From the NCBI GenBank assembly GCA_003963145.1, contig RXJJ01000009.1:341337-381869 (forward strand): 40,533 nt of DNA. The letters run 5' to 3'. How positions within the stretch are numbered: position 1 is the first letter of the stretch; every line of letters begins with the position of its first letter. Made by a program: the position numbers and the translations under genes. This DNA comes from Bradyrhizobiaceae bacterium (lineage in GTDB: Bacteria > Pseudomonadota > Alphaproteobacteria > Rhizobiales > Xanthobacteraceae). The notes under the pieces are model-generated. The model was not told where the DNA came from and made no database searches. It saw only the letters and a list, made by a program, of their open reading frames with translations. Below are positions 23,828 to 30,727 of this stretch, piece by piece.

Positions 23828-24556
23828 TCAATCCTTGGCCACACTGCCAGTGGTGACATCCCACGTCGCATGGCGAACGCCGGACCGCGTGGCGAGGTCC
23901 GCTACCACGGCATCGAGTTCTTTGGCTTCGGCTGCGGTACCAACCAGCGTTGCGACAATCTCAACAGCCCCGTCCGGCCTTGCGGTGGTCACAACATCGC
24001 CAACCGGGTAATGAGCCGCCTCCAGCCGCTCGACCAGAAGCTCTCGCAGCGAATCCACCGCACCATGGTCGGCCGTCAGCAAAAATTCGTAGGTTGCTTC
24101 AGTCGTTCGCTCATCCAGCGGGCTGCGATTGATGGCGTTGACCAGCGGACGAAGCAGAGTGTTACCGGCAAGAATGAAGAGGGTCAGCGCCGCTGCCTGC
24201 GCGATGAGGTCCGCGCCCGCGCAAGAGCCGACCGCCGCCGACCCCCAGAGTGTTGCGGCCGTGTTCAGCCCGCTGACATTGGCGCCGTCCTTCATGATGA
24301 CGCCCGCGCCGAGAAAGCCGATGCCCGAAACCACATAGGCGATAATGCGCACCGCGCCGTCGGCGCCCGCGATATGCATACCGATATCGACAAAGGCGAC
24401 AGCAGCGACCGCGACCAGAACATTGGTCCGCAGGCCCGCGTTGCGGAGACGATATTGGCGTTCCGCGCCGATCAGCGTGCCGAGAACGAACGCCGTTGAC
24501 AGGCTAAGCAGCGTGTCGAGAAAATCATAAAACTGAAAGGTCGTCAGGAACCGCAT
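23828..24556 (-). CDS. MgtC/SapB family membrane protein
   Basis: 242 residues. Five hydrophobic helices in residues 15-145, with the family signatures FVLGTLIGAERQYR, NAGLRTNVLVA and GIGFLGAGVIMKDG, followed by NVSGLNTAATLWGSAAVG. The C-terminal part (about 155-242) looks like an ACT-type regulatory domain. MgtC proteins matter for growth in low Mg2+ and for inhibition of F-ATPase in pathogens; others have unknown roles. It begins 16 bases after the WD40 gene, so is in the cobW-WD40 unit. Confidence 0.9.
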   Translation of the reverse strand: MRFLTTFQFYDFLDTLLSLSTAFVLGTLIGAERQYRLRNAGLRTNVLVAVAAVAFVDIGMHIAGADGAVRIIAYVVSGIGFLGAGVIMKDGANVSGLNTAATLWGSAAVGSCAGADLIAQAAALTLFILAGNTLLRPLVNAINRSPLDERTTEATYEFLLTADHGAVDSLRELLVERLEAAHYPVGDVVTTARPDGAVEIVATLVGTAAEAKELDAVVADLATRSGVRHATWDVTTGSVAKD

Positions 24557-24572
24557 GGCGCAGGCTTACGCG

Positions 24573-25592
24573 TTACAGCGCGAGCAGTCCAGCGTCTCCC
24601 TCGTCGCTTGCGAAGGCGAGCAGGCTGCCTTTCGCATTCCAGGCCAGCGCGGTCACCGGATGTCCGGCATTACGGCGCACGAGAATTTCCGCGCCGTCCT
24701 GTATCCGGACCATCAGGATGGTGCCGTCGCTGTATCCGGCGGCAAAAATATCGTCCTTCGGATGGCAGGCCACCACCGTCACCTTGGCCTGCAAGGGTGC
24801 GAGCATTTCGGGCTGCTTTCCCATCGGACCATCCTTGCTGCCGAACGGCCACAGAATCGCGCTGTCCGAACCGGATGTCGCGAGGAATTTTCCGCCCGCG
24901 CTCCATGACATCGAGCGCACACGGGCTGGATATCCGGTCATGCGCATGTGCTTGGCATCGGCCAGCCGCCAGCCATGCAGCGCCGGCTCGTGCATAGAAG
25001 TGACGAGAAATCTGTTATCGGCACTGAAGGTGACGCCAAGATGCGAGCCCTTCCACTCCAGCACTTCGGGCTTGGCGGCCATGTTGGGAAACCACAAGGT
25101 CACGCCATTATAGTGTGCGATGGCCAGCCGCAGCCCCTTCGGCGCGAAGGCTAGCCCGCCTACAGTCGAAGTGACCTCGAACGACTTTTCTTCGCCTTTT
25201 GGCGTTTTCACAAAGGCCGTTTTACCCGCCGACCACGCCACCGTGCCATCGGCGTGAGCGGCGACATTGTCGATCCAGCGGCGCTTGGCGTCGGTCGCGA
25301 GTGTTTCGACTTCACCCTTCGCGACCACCGAAACGATCTTGCCGTCATCTCCGCCGGTCACGAGGCGCTTGCCGTCCGTGACTGCACAGAGAATACCGCC
25401 ATCATGAACGCCGAGCTGTGTCCATGCGCCTTCGGTATCAACCAGCATGACGTGCTCTTCAGCACCGACGAAAGCGGCGGTATCACCAAGGAAATGCACG
25501 AAGGCGGCTGGCGTCTTCAACTCGACTTTGCGGACGCGGTCGGTGACGGAAACGATCGACGACGCATCAGGCGCGAGAGTGAAATCGGTCAT
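24573..25592 (-). CDS. WD40-repeat beta-propeller protein
   Basis: 339 residues made of about six or seven WD40-type blades (for example RVRSMSWSAGGKFLATSGSDSAILW, VVACHPKDDIFAAGYSDGTILMVR, VTALAWNAKGSLLAFASDEGDAGLL). No signal peptide is seen, so it should be cytosolic. The gene shares one base with the cobW stop (TGATG at 25594-25590), pointing to close coupling with that GTPase. I know this WD40-CobW pairing as recurrent in alphaproteobacteria, but no function has been firmly assigned; a scaffolding role in zinc trafficking is a guess. Confidence 0.85.
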   Translation of the reverse strand: MTDFTLAPDASSIVSVTDRVRKVELKTPAAFVHFLGDTAAFVGAEEHVMLVDTEGAWTQLGVHDGGILCAVTDGKRLVTGGDDGKIVSVVAKGEVETLATDAKRRWIDNVAAHADGTVAWSAGKTAFVKTPKGEEKSFEVTSTVGGLAFAPKGLRLAIAHYNGVTLWFPNMAAKPEVLEWKGSHLGVTFSADNRFLVTSMHEPALHGWRLADAKHMRMTGYPARVRSMSWSAGGKFLATSGSDSAILWPFGSKDGPMGKQPEMLAPLQAKVTVVACHPKDDIFAAGYSDGTILMVRIQDGAEILVRRNAGHPVTALAWNAKGSLLAFASDEGDAGLLAL

Positions 25593-26659
25593 CACGCGGC
25601 GACGGTTTTCGCAAAGCCCTCGCGGATCGCCTGTTCGGGCAGATCGCGGCCGATAAAGACGAGACGGCTCTCGCGAGCTTCACCGTCTTTCCATTTACGC
25701 TGATGATCGCCCTCCAGCATCATGTGAACACCCTGAAAGACATAGCGGTCGTCATCGTCCTTGAAGGCAAGAATTCCCTTGGAACGCAAAATCTTCTGCC
25801 CGTCCTTGGCGACCAGATCCTGAAGCCACGGCATGAATTTCATCGGATCGATCGGCTTGTCGGTCCGCAGCGAGAGCGATTGCATATCCTCGTCGTGATA
25901 ATGCTTCAATCCATGACCGTGGTGATGATGCCCGTGGTCGTGGTGATGGTTATGCCCGTGATCATGATGATCGTGGTCGTGGTGATGATCGTGATCGTCG
26001 CCACCGTCGAGGAAATCCGGCTCGATATCCAGAATGCGGCCGAGGTCGAATGCACCGCGCTCCAGAACGTCCGACAGCTTCACTTTCGCCCGTTCGGTGC
26101 GATGAAGCGTAGCGTAGGGATTGATGCCGCGAATCCGCGCCTCGACTTCCTCCAGTTCGTCCTTACCGACCAGATCGGTCTTGTTCAGCACGATGACGTC
26201 AGCGAACGCGATCTGGTTCTTGGCTTCCGGCGCATCCTTCAACCGCTCGCTCAGCCATTTGGCATCCGCCACGGTCACCACCGCATCGAGCGTGGTCTTC
26301 TCACGGACGTCGTCATCAACAAAGAATGTCTGCGCCACCGGGGCGGGGTCGGCGAGACCGGTGGTCTCGACGATGATCGCGTCGAACTTGCCCTTGCGCT
26401 TCATCAGACCGTCGATGATCCGAACGAGATCGCCGCGAACGGTGCAGCAGATGCAGCCGTTGTTCATTTCGAACACTTCCTCATCAGCGCCGACAATGAG
26501 ATCGTTGTCGATGCCGATCTCGCCGAACTCGTTGACGATCACAGCATATTTCTTGCCGTGGTTCTCCGACAGGATGCGGTTCAGGAGCGTCGTCTTGCCG
26601 GCACCAAGGTAGCCGGTGAGGACGGTGACGGGGATTTTAGCGGTGGACGGTTCGGACAT
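25592..26659 (-). CDS. COG0523/CobW-type GTPase with His-rich loop, zinc metallochaperone-like
   Basis: 355 residues. Walker A GYLGAGKT (16-23), the metal-binding CxCC motif Cys69-Ile-Cys71-Cys72, guanine-specific NKTD, and a long His/Asp run between about residues 228 and 265 before the CobW C-terminal domain. Such GTPases (ZigA, YeiR, CobW) deliver metals; location beside a znu operon favours zinc. ATG 26659 has GGAG seven bases upstream; starts at 26686 and 26725 fall in the upstream repeat and are rejected. Start of the cobW-WD40-mgtC unit, 99 bases after znuA. Confidence 0.9.
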
Positions 26660-26682
26660 TGGCACTCCGGGCACATCAAATG

Positions 26683-26727
26683 GCATGCTCCCTTCGGAAA
26701 ACAGGTTTCCGCTTTTCCGGATCATGC
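26683..26727. repeat. Intergenic palindromic repeat of Bradyrhizobiaceae type
   Basis: About 45 bases bounded by GCATG and CATGC with an inner inverted repeat, TCGGAAAA...TTTTCCGG, around AACAGGTTTCCGC. Elements with this GATCATGC...GGAAAA...TTTTCC layout are, to my knowledge, very common between genes in Bradyrhizobium and relatives. It separates znuA from cobW. No second copy was noticed in this window. Confidence 0.55.
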
Positions 26728-26758: not shown

Positions 26759-27676
26759 CTAGCCAGCCAGCGCGCTGGTCAATGCCCTTATATTGTGCCG
26801 AACCATATCAATGTAAGTGGGGGCCTCACCGTTTTCCTCGGTCAAACTGTCCGAATACAGGGTCCCCCCGACCTTTGACCCGGTCTCGGTGGCGATCCGC
26901 CGCATCAAACGGGGATCGCTTATATTTTCAAGAAAAACGGCGGGGATTTTCTGCTTTTTGACCTGGGTAATAATGGAGGCAATGTCCCCGGCACTGGGCT
27001 CGGCGTCGGTTGAAACGCCTTGCGGGGCAATGAAGGCTATTCCATAGGCGGCGGCAAAGTAGCCAAACGCGTCATGGGTCGAGATCACATGGCGGCGGTC
27101 GGGAGGGATTCTTGCCAGCATGTCCCGCACCTCGCGGTCAAGCGCGTCGAGCCTGGCGAGGTACGAGCCGGCATTGGCGCGGTAGGTCGTGGCGCCGGCC
27201 GGGTCCACGGCGATCAGGGCATCGCGAATATTGGCGACGTAGATTTTCGCGTTGGACACGGATTGCCAGGCGTGCGGGTCCGCTTCGCCGCCGTGCTCGC
27301 CCGCGCCTGCCTCACCTGCCGCAATCCTGCGCGGCGTGATGCCTTGGCTCGCGACCACCGTGGCTGCCTTGCTGCCCGACGACTGAATCAGACGGGGCAG
27401 CCATCCCTCCAGCCCCAGACCATTGAGGATGACGAGTCTGGCATTGGCGATTTTCTGCGCGTCCGCAGGCGCTGGCGTATAGACATGGGTATCGCTGTTC
27501 GGACCAACCAGCGTCGTGACATTCACCCGATCGCCGCCGACATTCTTCGTGAAATCGCCGAGGATGGAGAATGTCGCGACGACATTGATCTTGTCGTGTT
27601 CAATCCTGCCCTGTTCCGCGCAGGCCGGAGCCACGAACGCAACCAAAGCAATCCAGCAGACCGCAAGACGCCGCAT
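26759..27676 (-). CDS. znuA: Zinc ABC transporter substrate-binding protein
   Basis: 305 residues with a signal peptide ending APACA-EQ. Cluster A-I ligands: His64 in DTHVYTP, His135 in DPHAWQS, His201 in STHDAFGYF, with Asp276 near the end. A third His where Mn-binding relatives have Glu supports zinc. The His-rich loop of enteric ZnuA is almost absent (only GEHGGE at 126-131), so it is of the compact AztC-like form. It captures Zn2+ in the periplasm for the permease encoded just upstream. ATG 27676 with GAGGA eight bases upstream. Confidence 0.9.
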   Translation of the reverse strand: MRRLAVCWIALVAFVAPACAEQGRIEHDKINVVATFSILGDFTKNVGGDRVNVTTLVGPNSDTHVYTPAPADAQKIANARLVILNGLGLEGWLPRLIQSSGSKAATVVASQGITPRRIAAGEAGAGEHGGEADPHAWQSVSNAKIYVANIRDALIAVDPAGATTYRANAGSYLARLDALDREVRDMLARIPPDRRHVISTHDAFGYFAAAYGIAFIAPQGVSTDAEPSAGDIASIITQVKKQKIPAVFLENISDPRLMRRIATETGSKVGGTLYSDSLTEENGEAPTYIDMVRHNIRALTSALAG

Positions 27677-27686
27677 CAGATTGTCC

Positions 27687-28556
27687 TCAAGCTTCCAGAT
27701 GGCGACCCGGGAACAGCTGCCGCGCAAGTCCACCGACAGGCCCCAGCAGAACCGACAGCACATAGAAGCAGGCAGCCACGAGAATGATCGCCGGGCCTGA
27801 CGGCACCTTGGTCTGAAACGACAGCACGAGCCCGAGATAGCCGGACAGCGCCGCAGCAACCACGGCCACTCCGATCATGCCCGCGACATCGCGCGACCAG
27901 AATTTGGCGATGCCCGCAGGCAGGATCATGAGGCCCACGGCCAGCAGGGTCCCGAGCGCCTGAAAACCATTGACCAGATTGATCACGACAAGCGCCAGAA
28001 ACGTCAGATGCGCGGGTGCGCCGGCGTGGCTGACGGTGCGCAGAAAGAGGGGATCGACGCATTCAATCACCAGCGGACGATAGATAATCGCGAGCAGAAC
28101 AAGCGTGATGGTGGCGTTGAAGGCAATCACCAGCAAAGTGGGGTCATCCATTGCGAGGATATTGCCGAACAGCACGTGAAGAAGATCGATATTCGTACCG
28201 CGAATGGAGACGATCGTGACACCAAGCGCCAGCGAAACGAGATAAAAAGTCGCCAGCGAAGCATCCTCCTTGATCTCGGTGGTCCGCGACACCAGTCCCG
28301 CCAGTATCGCGACCGCAAAACCGGCGATCAGCCCCCCAAAGGTCATTGCGAACAGATTGAGGCCCGAGATCAGAAAACCGATAGCCGCCCCGGGCAGGAT
28401 CGCATGCGCCATCGCGTCGCCGACCAGACTCATGCGGCGCAACATGAGAAACACGCCGATCGGCGCACCGCCAAGCGCCAACGCGATGACACCCGCAAGC
28501 GCGCGGCGCATGAACTCGAAATCAGCGAAGGGTGCAATCAGAGCGCCGAAGATCAT
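27687..28556 (-). CDS. znuB: Zinc ABC transporter permease
   Basis: 289 residues, about eight transmembrane helices, of the ABC-3 family: MRRALAGVIALALGGAPIGVFLMLRRMSLVGDAMAHAILPG carries the family signature LRRMSLVGDAMAHA. Forms the inner-membrane channel of the Zn transporter. Either TTG 28562 or ATG 28556 can start it; neither has a good ribosome site, and translation may be coupled to znuC, whose stop lies seven bases upstream. I choose ATG 28556. It ends ten bases before znuA. Confidence 0.92.
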   Translation of the reverse strand: MIFGALIAPFADFEFMRRALAGVIALALGGAPIGVFLMLRRMSLVGDAMAHAILPGAAIGFLISGLNLFAMTFGGLIAGFAVAILAGLVSRTTEIKEDASLATFYLVSLALGVTIVSIRGTNIDLLHVLFGNILAMDDPTLLVIAFNATITLVLLAIIYRPLVIECVDPLFLRTVSHAGAPAHLTFLALVVINLVNGFQALGTLLAVGLMILPAGIAKFWSRDVAGMIGVAVVAAALSGYLGLVLSFQTKVPSGPAIILVAACFYVLSVLLGPVGGLARQLFPGRHLEA

Positions 28557-28562
28557 GGGCAA

Positions 28563-29321
28563 TTACGCAGCTCGTGCAGAATTCTTTTCCACACAGCACG
28601 GCGCGGCAGCGTCATCGAATGCCTCGCACATGTGGCGTGCGGCCAGAAGATTGTCGGCCGTCAGAATGCTGGCCGTCGCCCCCCACGCCACCGGCGAGCG
28701 CGCGAGCAACAGCGTCTCGGGGAAATTCATGCGGACCATATCCATGTCATGCAGCGCCGCCAGCACGGTGCGCTTTTCCGCATGCCAATGCCGCACAAGC
28801 GCGATCAGATCGGCGGAAGTTTTGGCATCGATGGCGTTGAACGGTTCGTCGAGCACGATCACGCGTGCGTCCTGCACCAGCACCCGTGCGAACAGCATGC
28901 GCTGCATCTGACCGCCCGACAGCGTACCGATGGTCCGGTTCTCGAAACCATTCAGACCAACAGATGCCAGCGCGGCGATAATCCGCCCTTGGTCGGCCTT
29001 GTCGAAGCCGCCGAACAGGCCCGTCTTGCGCCATAGTCCCGTACCGACGAAATCAAATACGGAAATCGGAAATGTGCGATCGATGTCCGCGGTCTGCGGC
29101 AGGTAGGCGATGTCGCGAGTATCGAGACCGCCGCGATCGATCGTGCCCGACAGCGGCTTGAGAATGCCGACAATACCGCGAAACAGCGTCGATTTACCTG
29201 CGCCGTTCGGACCGACCAAGGCAAGCAACGCCCCCTCGCTCACTTCGCCGGTCAGGTGATGCACGGCAGGATGCCGGTCATAGCCGAGTGTGACATCGCG
29301 AAATTGAAGCTGCGTCCCCAT
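28563..29321 (-). CDS. znuC: Zinc ABC transporter ATP-binding protein
   Basis: 252 residues. Walker A GPNGAGKST (37-45), signature LSGGQMQR, Walker B VIVLDEPF, and a switch His in ALHDMDM. It powers ZnuB. The C-terminus contains an unusual Cys pair (APCCVEKNS), possibly metal-related. ATG 29321 lies two bases after the small His-rich gene's stop, with GAGG in the end of that gene as ribosome site (GAGGTAGCGATG). A further upstream ATG-like start at 29354 would overlap that gene and is less conserved. Confidence 0.92.
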   Translation of the reverse strand: MGTQLQFRDVTLGYDRHPAVHHLTGEVSEGALLALVGPNGAGKSTLFRGIVGILKPLSGTIDRGGLDTRDIAYLPQTADIDRTFPISVFDFVGTGLWRKTGLFGGFDKADQGRIIAALASVGLNGFENRTIGTLSGGQMQRMLFARVLVQDARVIVLDEPFNAIDAKTSADLIALVRHWHAEKRTVLAALHDMDMVRMNFPETLLLARSPVAWGATASILTADNLLAARHMCEAFDDAAAPCCVEKNSARAA

Positions 29322-29323
29322 CG

Positions 29324-29500
29324 CTACCTCATCGCCAGCACAATGACCGCCCACAGGCCCGCGCTAATCGCCACCGCACCGGCAAGCCGCACGGCAAGCG
29401 AGGTTCGCAGAATCGACCAGCCCACGGTTTGCGCCGGATGTGGCGTGTGGTGATCATGGTCATGACTATGCGGATGACGGGAAGAAGCGGCGGCGCTCAT
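29324..29500 (-). CDS. 58-residue His-rich single-helix membrane protein heading the zinc operon
   Basis: Encoded from ATG 29500 to TAG 29324 and too short to be obvious by length. The N-terminal 22 residues contain eight His, many in HxH spacing (RHPHSHDHDHHTPHPA), followed by one transmembrane helix (about 36-57). It is the first gene of the unit His-rich protein-znuC-znuB-znuA, with two bases to znuC, and sits directly behind the Zur-like promoter. I do not recognise the family; it resembles CbtB-like small metal membrane proteins only in size and plan. A role in gathering zinc or sensing for the transporter is inference. Confidence 0.75.
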   Translation of the reverse strand: MSAAASSRHPHSHDHDHHTPHPAQTVGWSILRTSLAVRLAGAVAISAGLWAVIVLAMR

Positions 29501-29551
29501 GGATAGTTTTCTCGAGGGGCGGCTTGTAGATTGATCCGTCCCTTAGGGTAA

Positions 29552-29566
29552 CGTTATATTATAACA
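29552..29566 (-). promoter_or_regulatory. Zur-box-like operator and -10 of the zinc operon
   Basis: GTTATA-T-TATAAC (29553-29565) is a perfect palindrome and on the minus strand contains TATAAT (29563-29558) at a -10 position 52 bases ahead of the first start codon. Its form agrees with alphaproteobacterial Zur operators (TGTTATA-N-TATAACA type). Zinc-loaded Zur would block the promoter. No zur gene is in this window. Confidence 0.7.
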
Positions 29567-29611: not shown

Positions 29612-29986
29612 TCAGGTAAAATGCCTGACCAGGGCGAGCCCAGCGAACAGACCGGCAATAGACAGCAGGACCGAGCCTATCACGTAAAAGGCAGCGAGCC
29701 CGATTTCGCCACGCTCATAAAGAACAGCGGCGTCGAGGGAGAAGGCGGAAAAGGTCGTGTATCCGCCGAGGATGCCGGTCATGATGAAAACGCGCCAATG
29801 GTGCGACGCCTCGCCCTTGAAAGCGAGATAACCGGCAATCAGCCCCATCACTGTCGAACCAGTAATGTTGATGAGCATGATGCCATAGGGAAAATCCGTT
29901 CCGAATAAACGTCCACAGGTCACGTTTACAAAGTGGCGGATGCTCGCACCCAGTCCGCCACCAACAAAAACAAGAAGATAGTTCAT
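29612..29986 (-). CDS. crcB: Fluoride ion exporter CrcB/Fluc
   Basis: 124 residues, four transmembrane helices, with GGGLGASIRH in helix I, the hydrophilic NITGS motif, and TTFSAFSLD in helix III, all typical of Fluc channels, which work as antiparallel dimers. Start at ATG 29986, where conservation begins; the frame to 30040 has no support. No fluoride riboswitch is seen upstream. A 15-base palindrome, TGGCGCA-A-TGCGCCA (30016-30030), lies about 30 bases upstream. Single CrcB gene, not the split pair. Confidence 0.93.
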   Translation of the reverse strand: MNYLLVFVGGGLGASIRHFVNVTCGRLFGTDFPYGIMLINITGSTVMGLIAGYLAFKGEASHHWRVFIMTGILGGYTTFSAFSLDAAVLYERGEIGLAAFYVIGSVLLSIAGLFAGLALVRHFT

Positions 29987-30015
29987 CACGTCTATCCCGA
30001 TTGCCCGTGATGTTT

Positions 30016-30030
30016 TGGCGCAATGCGCCA
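30016..30030. promoter_or_regulatory. Palindrome upstream of crcB
   Basis: TGGCGCA-A-TGCGCCA, perfect with a single central base. It lies about 30 bases before the crcB start and about 50 after the sodB terminator. May be an operator or a hairpin in the leader. Function unknown. Confidence 0.4.
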
Positions 30031-30078
30031 CACGCGGCAAGACTTGTCATCAATATTCAAGCGCTGTGCCAAACAATA

Positions 30079-30130: not shown

Positions 30131-30727
30131 TCAAGCCTTTTCGAAAAGCTGCTCGACATATTCCCAGTTCACAAGATGATCGACAAACGCCTTGAGATAG
30201 TCGGGGCGACGGTTGCGATAATCGATATAATAGGAATGTTCCCACACATCGACGCCGAGTATCGGGGTAGCTCCGTGCACCAGCGGGCTTTCGCCGTTCG
30301 GCGTTTTCGAGATTTCGAGCTTGCCGTTTTTCACCGAAAGCCAAGCCCAGCCGGAGCCGAACTGGCCGACGCCAGCGGCGGCAAAATCGGTCTTGAACTT
30401 TTCCAGACCACCGAGATCCTCATCGATTTTCTTGGCCAGCTTGCCGGGCAATTTATCGCCGCCGCCATTTGGCTTCATCCAGTTCCAGAAATGCAGGTGA
30501 TTGTAGTGCTGGCCAGCATTGTTGAAAATGGCGGGATTTTTTCCAAAGGAGCCCTTTACAATATCCTCAAGGGACTTGCCCTCGAATTCGGTACCCTTGA
30601 TCGCGTTGTTTCCGTTGGTGACGTAGGCCTGATGGTGCTTGTCGTGATGGTACTCCAGCGTCTCCTTGGACATATGGGGCTGGAGCGCATCGTAAGCGTA
30701 AGGCAAATTCGGGAGCGAGAAGGTCAT
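30131..30727 (-). CDS. sodB: Superoxide dismutase, iron type
   Basis: 198 residues. Metal ligands: His27 (LEYHHDKHH), His77 (HYNHLHFW), Asp160 and His164 (LGVDVWEHSYYID). The second-sphere Gln73 comes from the N-terminal half (NAGQHYNH), the position typical of Fe enzymes. It turns superoxide into oxygen and H2O2, cytosolic, without a signal peptide. ATG 30727. Single gene with its own terminator, divergent from the ModA-like gene. Confidence 0.95.
   Translation of the reverse strand: MTFSLPNLPYAYDALQPHMSKETLEYHHDKHHQAYVTNGNNAIKGTEFEGKSLEDIVKGSFGKNPAIFNNAGQHYNHLHFWNWMKPNGGGDKLPGKLAKKIDEDLGGLEKFKTDFAAAGVGQFGSGWAWLSVKNGKLEISKTPNGESPLVHGATPILGVDVWEHSYYIDYRNRRPDYLKAFVDHLVNWEYVEQLFEKA

Follow-up and report, generated by a model that had tools for sequence, protein, structure and literature searches.

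A conserved single-helix small protein gene precedes AztABC-like zinc importer genes in a Bradyrhizobiaceae bacterium and other Pseudomonadota

The closest described relatives of the importer considered here are AztABCD of Paracoccus, for which NCBIfam holds curated models, ZnuABC, and ZniCBA, reported from Klebsiella pneumoniae (PMC10797113) and Rhizobium leguminosarum (PMC12183173). According to the available text of these two reports, zniCBA of Klebsiella sits between mltB and pncC (PMC10797113), and a Zur motif lies 153 bp ahead of zniC in R. leguminosarum (PMC12183173). The ZniCBA of C. metallidurans carries the same name and is an unrelated efflux complex (PMC11647595, as far as its available text goes). 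Small proteins that stabilise transporters, e.g. MgtU and MgtS, are treated in the available part of a review (PMC10710835), and for the zinc carrier BbZIP the accessible text proposes that a cytosolic histidine-rich stretch acts as a zinc sensor limiting uptake (PMC10256678).

Here, we analysed a window of 40,533 nucleotides from a Bradyrhizobiaceae bacterium that carries a zinc importer operon on the minus strand. Family models assign its transporter genes to an AztA-like ABC ATPase (28563..29321), an AztB-like permease of the ABC-3 family (27687..28562) and an AztC-like periplasmic zinc-binding protein (26759..27676), the start of the last being placed by inference at the ATG that encodes residue 62 in the ORF as listed. 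The Azt models scored best for all three proteins, each slightly under its NCBIfam cut-off (AztA 215.7 bits against 220, AztB 253.8 against 280, AztC 331.2 against 350), while the Znu scores were far below theirs (ZnuC 95.3 against 306, ZnuB 81.2 against 284, ZnuA 71.4 against 268). We therefore file the importer as a sister of AztABC that is neither ZnuABC nor a proven AztABCD, and the znu-type assignment of the preliminary description of this DNA is not retained. The resemblance to AztABCD extends to the A-B-C gene order and to the association with zinc and Zur, but the window proteins fall under the curated cut-offs and the genome has no match to AztD at E <= 1e-40. Furthermore, the loci of AztABCD order that we read have no small helix gene, whereas the window operon has one. 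ZnuABC is likewise a cluster A-I zinc ABC importer, but the window ATPase stays far from the ZnuC cut-off (95 versus 306 bits). ZnuABC is not known to have such a small gene.

The small gene, its upstream box and the surrounding operon

Directly ahead of aztA, an ATG at position 29500 opens a frame of 58 codons on the minus strand (29324..29500), whose TAG stop is followed, after two bases, by the start codon of the ABC ATPase gene (ATG at 29321). The protein reads MSAAASSRHPHSHDHDHHTPHPAQT-VGWSILRTSLAVR-LAGAVAISAGLWAVIVLAMR and consists of a histidine-rich tail (residues 9-21), a PHPAQT linker, a WSILR juxtamembrane stretch and a hydrophobic C-terminal helix with an R-x11-W signature (R38 and W50). 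With this helix and a stop codon at the aztA start, it shows the traits by which we define the family. The preliminary description had reported a 58-residue ORF with one membrane helix, located two bases before znuC. The ORF, the spacing and the helix are borne out, the last as a single hydrophobic stretch at about residues 39-56 (by eye), but the neighbouring gene encodes an AztA-like ATPase instead of ZnuC. Seven histidines are present, at residues 9, 11, 13, 15, 17, 18 and 21 with none past residue 22, so that the earlier count of eight in 22 residues was one too high.

The ORF list, homologue comparison, the signature and codon-level constraint together identify this small ORF as a real gene. 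In 116 of 179 proteins, the window's included, which share a common S-x-x-[RG]...R-x11-W frame and were anchored on that motif, the in-frame pN/pS over 2768 pairs was about 0.35-0.36 for the core of the small gene and 0.37 for the tail stretch, compared to 0.25 for aztA. Shifting the core frame by one or two bases raised it to 1.45 and 2.04. A chance ORF in GC-rich DNA has a negligible probability, being contradicted by all of the conservation evidence and by the control ABC ATPases described below (0/23), even though histidine-rich frames are not rare in the window, where three other stop-to-stop frames have at least seven histidines in 22 residues.

Upstream of the gene, a motif scan located the Zur-box-like palindrome GTTATATTATAAC (29553..29565), which reads GTTATA-T-TATAAC with zero mismatches and is conserved at this place in related loci. 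A palindrome search allowing up to two mismatches gave two matches in the window against 0.07 expected in shuffles. The minus-strand TATAAT at 29563-29558 lies within the palindrome, and a promoter scan of that strand reported no sigma-70-like pair; the perfect palindrome with TATAAT noted earlier is thus present in both its parts, but the scan lends it no sigma-70-like pair. Standing ahead of the operon, the palindrome has the GTTA-N5-TAAC form expected of a putative Zur box, and the accessible text of a study on Caulobacter uses the same motif for Zur (PMC4176598). In 137 of the 139 loci with such a box (up to one mismatch), it lies upstream of the small-gene start, at a median distance of 18 bp, which makes the small gene the first gene of the unit. 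The view that a small histidine-rich protein heads a Zur-type zinc operon thus holds, in that a conserved small histidine-rich single-helix protein is encoded behind a Zur-like box and ahead of the importer genes.

According to the gap table, no more than 5 nt separate the stop of the small gene from the start of aztA in 138 of 179 loci, overlaps included. Such tight spacing would also be expected of a leader ORF that serves translational coupling or attenuation of aztA and whose peptide is unimportant, but the residue-level constraint and the retention of the R-x11-W helix across Pseudomonadota make this highly improbable.

On the same strand, aztC is followed within window positions 23828-26725 by genes for a CobW/COG0523 GTPase, a WD40 protein and MgtC. 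The GTPase gene (25592..26725, minus strand) is the next gene and possibly in the same operon, as is that of the WD40 beta-propeller protein (24573..25595, minus strand), which is not AztD by NCBIfam. Together, these downstream genes look like part of a longer zinc-starvation operon. On the other side, a crcB gene of the fluoride channel family (29612-30040, minus strand) ends 46 bp ahead of the Zur-like box and adjoins a gene for an Fe/Mn superoxide dismutase (30131-30727, minus strand); another Bradyrhizobiaceae locus (L141) seemingly has the same crcB neighbour. Elsewhere in the same genome, the palindrome GTTACATTGTAAC (locus L044, about 1502; G000 C32:287735) precedes a TonB-dependent-receptor-like gene by a few hundred bases and is a candidate second Zur target.

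Distribution of the small gene

A protein search returned 27 proteins of 58-66 residues, including the window's own, and those named by their source were called "hypothetical". At the nearest aztA loci, the frame was found directly upstream in 30 of 30 and the box in 24 of 30. The reading frame and the histidine pattern, on whose conservation the preliminary description had staked its claim, are both kept in near relatives. From a genome scan, 80 named loci were retained, mostly from Bradyrhizobium, Afipia, Tardiphaga, Nitrobacter and Rhodopseudomonas, and all of them have the small gene (78 by script, 2 by reading). After merging of identical aztA sequences, 248 distinct aztA loci were read, and a small helix gene was present in 229 (227 by profile and two, L219 and L220, by eye) and absent from 19; this proportion is biased upwards, since the small ORF itself served to retrieve L046-L075, and the window's own profile match is true by construction, since its protein is among the profile rows. 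A fairer sample comes from an even draw of the order, in which 118 of 297 genomes had aztA at E <= 1e-70. The gene was counted in 100 of these and absent in 14, and the remaining four, uncounted there, have a profile match just upstream.

The association extends beyond the order. A draw from the phylum gave 27 genomes of other classes that matched at E <= 1e-45. The profile detects the small gene in 26 of them, and in the 27th a helix ORF was recognised by eye. R-x11-W was found in 25 of the 26 profile-positive loci. Two loci of the same order from this draw, L319 and L325 of family f24, which lie outside the 248, have no small gene. Among 40 more distant ABC ATPases, 17 have a binding protein downstream or none detected behind the permease, and nine of these A-B-C-type loci pass the profile, six have a divergent helix ORF by eye and two have none (L357, L361). 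L363 passes the profile with the Trp missing, and L356 passes it without R-x11-W. In the other 23, the binding protein is encoded upstream or no such partner is found close by, and none has a helix ORF at this place (0/23). In L364-L368, which are distant A-B-C-order importers (39-41% identity), the same spot is occupied by another kind of small helix protein, mostly of the LTELS...LLWLAI type, perhaps a second small-subunit family.

ZniCBA of Klebsiella (PMC10797113) and R. leguminosarum (PMC12183173) has the same operon layout. In Klebsiella, an ORF with R-x11-W precedes zniC, but this ORF has no histidine tail. In a K. aerogenes record, in which mltB (annotated in pieces) and pncC are the flanking neighbours, it is a 35-residue "Uncharacterised protein" overlapping zniC by 4 nt. 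The same ORF of 35 residues is found in a K. pneumoniae record (profile E 1.6e-7), again overlapping zniC by 4 nt, but is not listed there as a gene; the zniC match of this record, in two pieces, is likewise unlisted. A related ORF before zniC in Enterobacter scores more weakly (E about 0.007) and is missing the Trp. The box GTTATGTTATAAC lies 134-137 bp ahead of zniC in K. aerogenes, K. pneumoniae and Enterobacter. The main text of the Klebsiella importer paper (PMC10797113), as searched, does not mention the small ORF, nor does the accessible text of the R. leguminosarum paper (PMC12183173). The 153 bp between Zur motif and zniC in that species would leave room for such an ORF, and in a Neorhizobium relative, examined in its place, a plasmid copy has the small ORF.

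The absences are concentrated on the tree. On a 95-row AztA+AztB tree (a quick tree with SH-aLRT support only), presence or absence of the small gene requires two changes, and 18 of the 19 rows that lack the gene fall into a single group with a support of 99. This group includes every row with aztD downstream of aztC, e.g. Paracoccus sp. MA, Mesorhizobium and Klebsiella plasmid loci, and also loci of Sinorhizobium and Shinella in which aztD adjoins aztA. In L262 and L278, aztD is found elsewhere nearby and the small gene is kept. One large clade, that of the aztABCD order, works without the small gene; that it lost the gene is a reading and not a result, since the root was not inferred. Among 147 loci with at least 4 kb of downstream sequence, two have both aztD and the small gene, 10 only aztD, 127 only the small gene and eight neither (Fisher 3e-9), but this anticorrelation corresponds to a single event on the tree and so gives no independent support. 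We also considered that the helix might have become part of AztB in loci lacking the gene, and rejected this because the median AztB lengths of the two groups are 290 and 291. A small gene hidden in the aztABCD operons was likewise rejected, as L225-L227, L230 and L232 gave no profile match; the hydrophobic frame that ends 69 nt ahead of aztA in L232 is unrelated, and L226 has a weakly hydrophobic one that ends 110 nt ahead.

Signature, histidine tail and predicted topology

R-x11-W occurs in 227 of the 229 homologues and falls within the hydrophobic stretch in 226; for other frames of these upstream regions, the corresponding figure is 0 of 760. The tail varies far more. At least five histidines are present in 134 of the 229, 2-4 in 10 and none or one in 85, and in further relatives the tail is shortened or gone with the helix kept; tail lengths are approximate, as the start codons of homologues were assigned with a fixed rule. 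Many homologues thus have no histidines, and zinc binding cannot be the core job of the protein. By this comparison, the R-x11-W helix is the constant part and the histidine tail an optional, not a defining one.

Although the C-terminal flank is short (median 2 residues) and gives the charge rule little to compare, the flank preceding the helix has more lysine and arginine than the one following it in 177 of 179 proteins; the two flanks are equal in the other two proteins, and the opposite bias occurs in none. The N-terminal tail is therefore predicted to be cytosolic and the protein tail-anchored. This bears on the earlier suggestion that the protein takes zinc from periplasmic ZnuA, or more broadly that a periplasmic histidine-rich part exchanges zinc with AztC/ZnuA. 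The histidine-rich sequence would suit such an exchange, and the clade with the periplasmic AztD is mostly without the gene, which is absent from 10 of the 12 loci that have a nearby aztD. However, the charge bias places the N-terminus inside, no cleavable signal is apparent by eye, and the aztD pattern reduces to the one tree event described above; a predicted cytosolic tail fits the suggestion poorly, and we consider it very unlikely.

The C-terminus of AztA likewise bears a histidine-rich tail in 20 of 242 loci (6 of the 248 were dropped as cut or too short) with 10 changes on the tree; examples are L203, L226, L228, L264, L267, L290, L291, L292 and L294. With one exception, the small protein of these loci is absent or has fewer than five histidines. 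An exclusion between the two tails (both in 1 of 242, small protein only in 133, AztA only in 19, neither in 89; Fisher 1e-6) was rejected as there are too few independent pairs. A link between the histidine tail and a downstream cobW (82/97 versus 17/40) was likewise not upheld, falling to 10/23 versus 8/25 on tree rows with no support from independent pairs. The tail has no clear relation to the histidine loop of AztC.

A purely structural role has to be weighed against these data. The small protein could be an assembly or stability factor that shields AztB from proteolysis, its tail being a metal-buffering ornament of some lineages. The 37 diverse members share only the start Met, R38 and W50, several of them having 34-45 residues and no histidines, the tail is labile with 11 changes on the tree, and stabilising small proteins such as MgtU and MgtS are known, as the consulted part of the review describes (PMC10710835). 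But histidine tails recur, also on AztA, and the frame of the tail shows constraint of its own (pN/pS 0.37), so that we judge a purely structural factor unlikely.

A putative fourth component of Azt/Zni-type importers

The constant site at the ATPase start, the Arg/Trp helix and the specificity for an importer subfamily argue for a dedicated subunit that sits against AztB, and we consider the small protein to be probably a dedicated single-pass membrane subunit of the Azt/Zni-type importer. Covariation with AztB exceeded all six cluster shuffles (mean top-10 z 7.5 versus 4.7-6.1), which is suggestive, but about 61 effective sequences are too shallow a set to show contact. We infer contact with AztB, co-expression and a zinc role of the tail. 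The adjacent or overlapping genes make production together with AztA probable, and the Zur-like box suggests that this occurs when zinc is short. The C-terminal helix would then rest against the permease AztB and stabilise or gate the transporter, with R38 at the predicted cytosolic membrane face and W50 inside the helix. In the window's lineage, the histidine-rich arm, presumably zinc-binding, would be near the channel exit and the ATPase, where it may sense or accept zinc leaving AztB, and thereby either throttle uptake once the cytosol has sufficient zinc or hand the metal over. We lean towards this account as a whole, i.e. an AztB-side helix that stabilises or gates the transporter, combined with a cytosolic zinc role of the tail where present. 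Cytosolic sensing or acceptance of zinc by the tail is, as a separate proposal, a tentative one that falls somewhat short of even chances. The C-terminal histidine tails of AztA, which are surely cytosolic, support the importance of a cytosolic tail. Sensing at the exit and acceptance of imported zinc appear to be its two likeliest uses, between which sequence cannot choose. BbZIP offers a possible precedent for a cytosolic histidine-rich sensor in a zinc importer, to judge from the available text (PMC10256678), but there the stretch is a loop of a ZIP carrier and here it would belong to a separate subunit of an ABC importer.

The window protein matched no Pfam or NCBIfam family, and the idea of a CbtB-like histidine-rich small subunit was not borne out by these searches. 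The 37 diverse homologues gave only stray single matches in these collections (E 0.007-0.089), and the PDB contained nothing convincing (best E 0.3). In three records, the gene is missing from gene tables that are incomplete by design; with no family model either, the small gene is easily missed. No description of the family was found in the portions seen of open-licence PubMed Central papers, subscription literature being outside that scope. Like AcrZ, MgtS, MgtU and LucB, as covered in the consulted part of the review (PMC10710835), the protein is very small, membrane-bound and tied to a transporter, but the partner here is a zinc ABC importer and part of the family has a predicted cytosolic histidine tail; the comparison is one of general features. 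Small partners of transporters are therefore already known, and what is new here is, by sequence comparison, a wide and unannotated family tied to the Azt/Zni zinc importers.

In its broadest form, the proposal would be that Azt/Zni importers of Pseudomonadota are four-component systems with an ancestral first-encoded subunit that was lost in the aztABCD-order clade, and that part of them have a cytosolic histidine arm, sometimes placed on the ATPase instead, which senses zinc and shuts the importer. Taken in full, this remains doubtful. If the small protein is indeed such a subunit, the present view of a widespread zinc importer family, Klebsiella ZniCBA included, would lack a conserved component, and reconstitutions from A, B and C alone would be incomplete. 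One could then also test whether zinc ABC importers of bacteria have, in addition to Zur, a direct means of sensing zinc in the cytosol.
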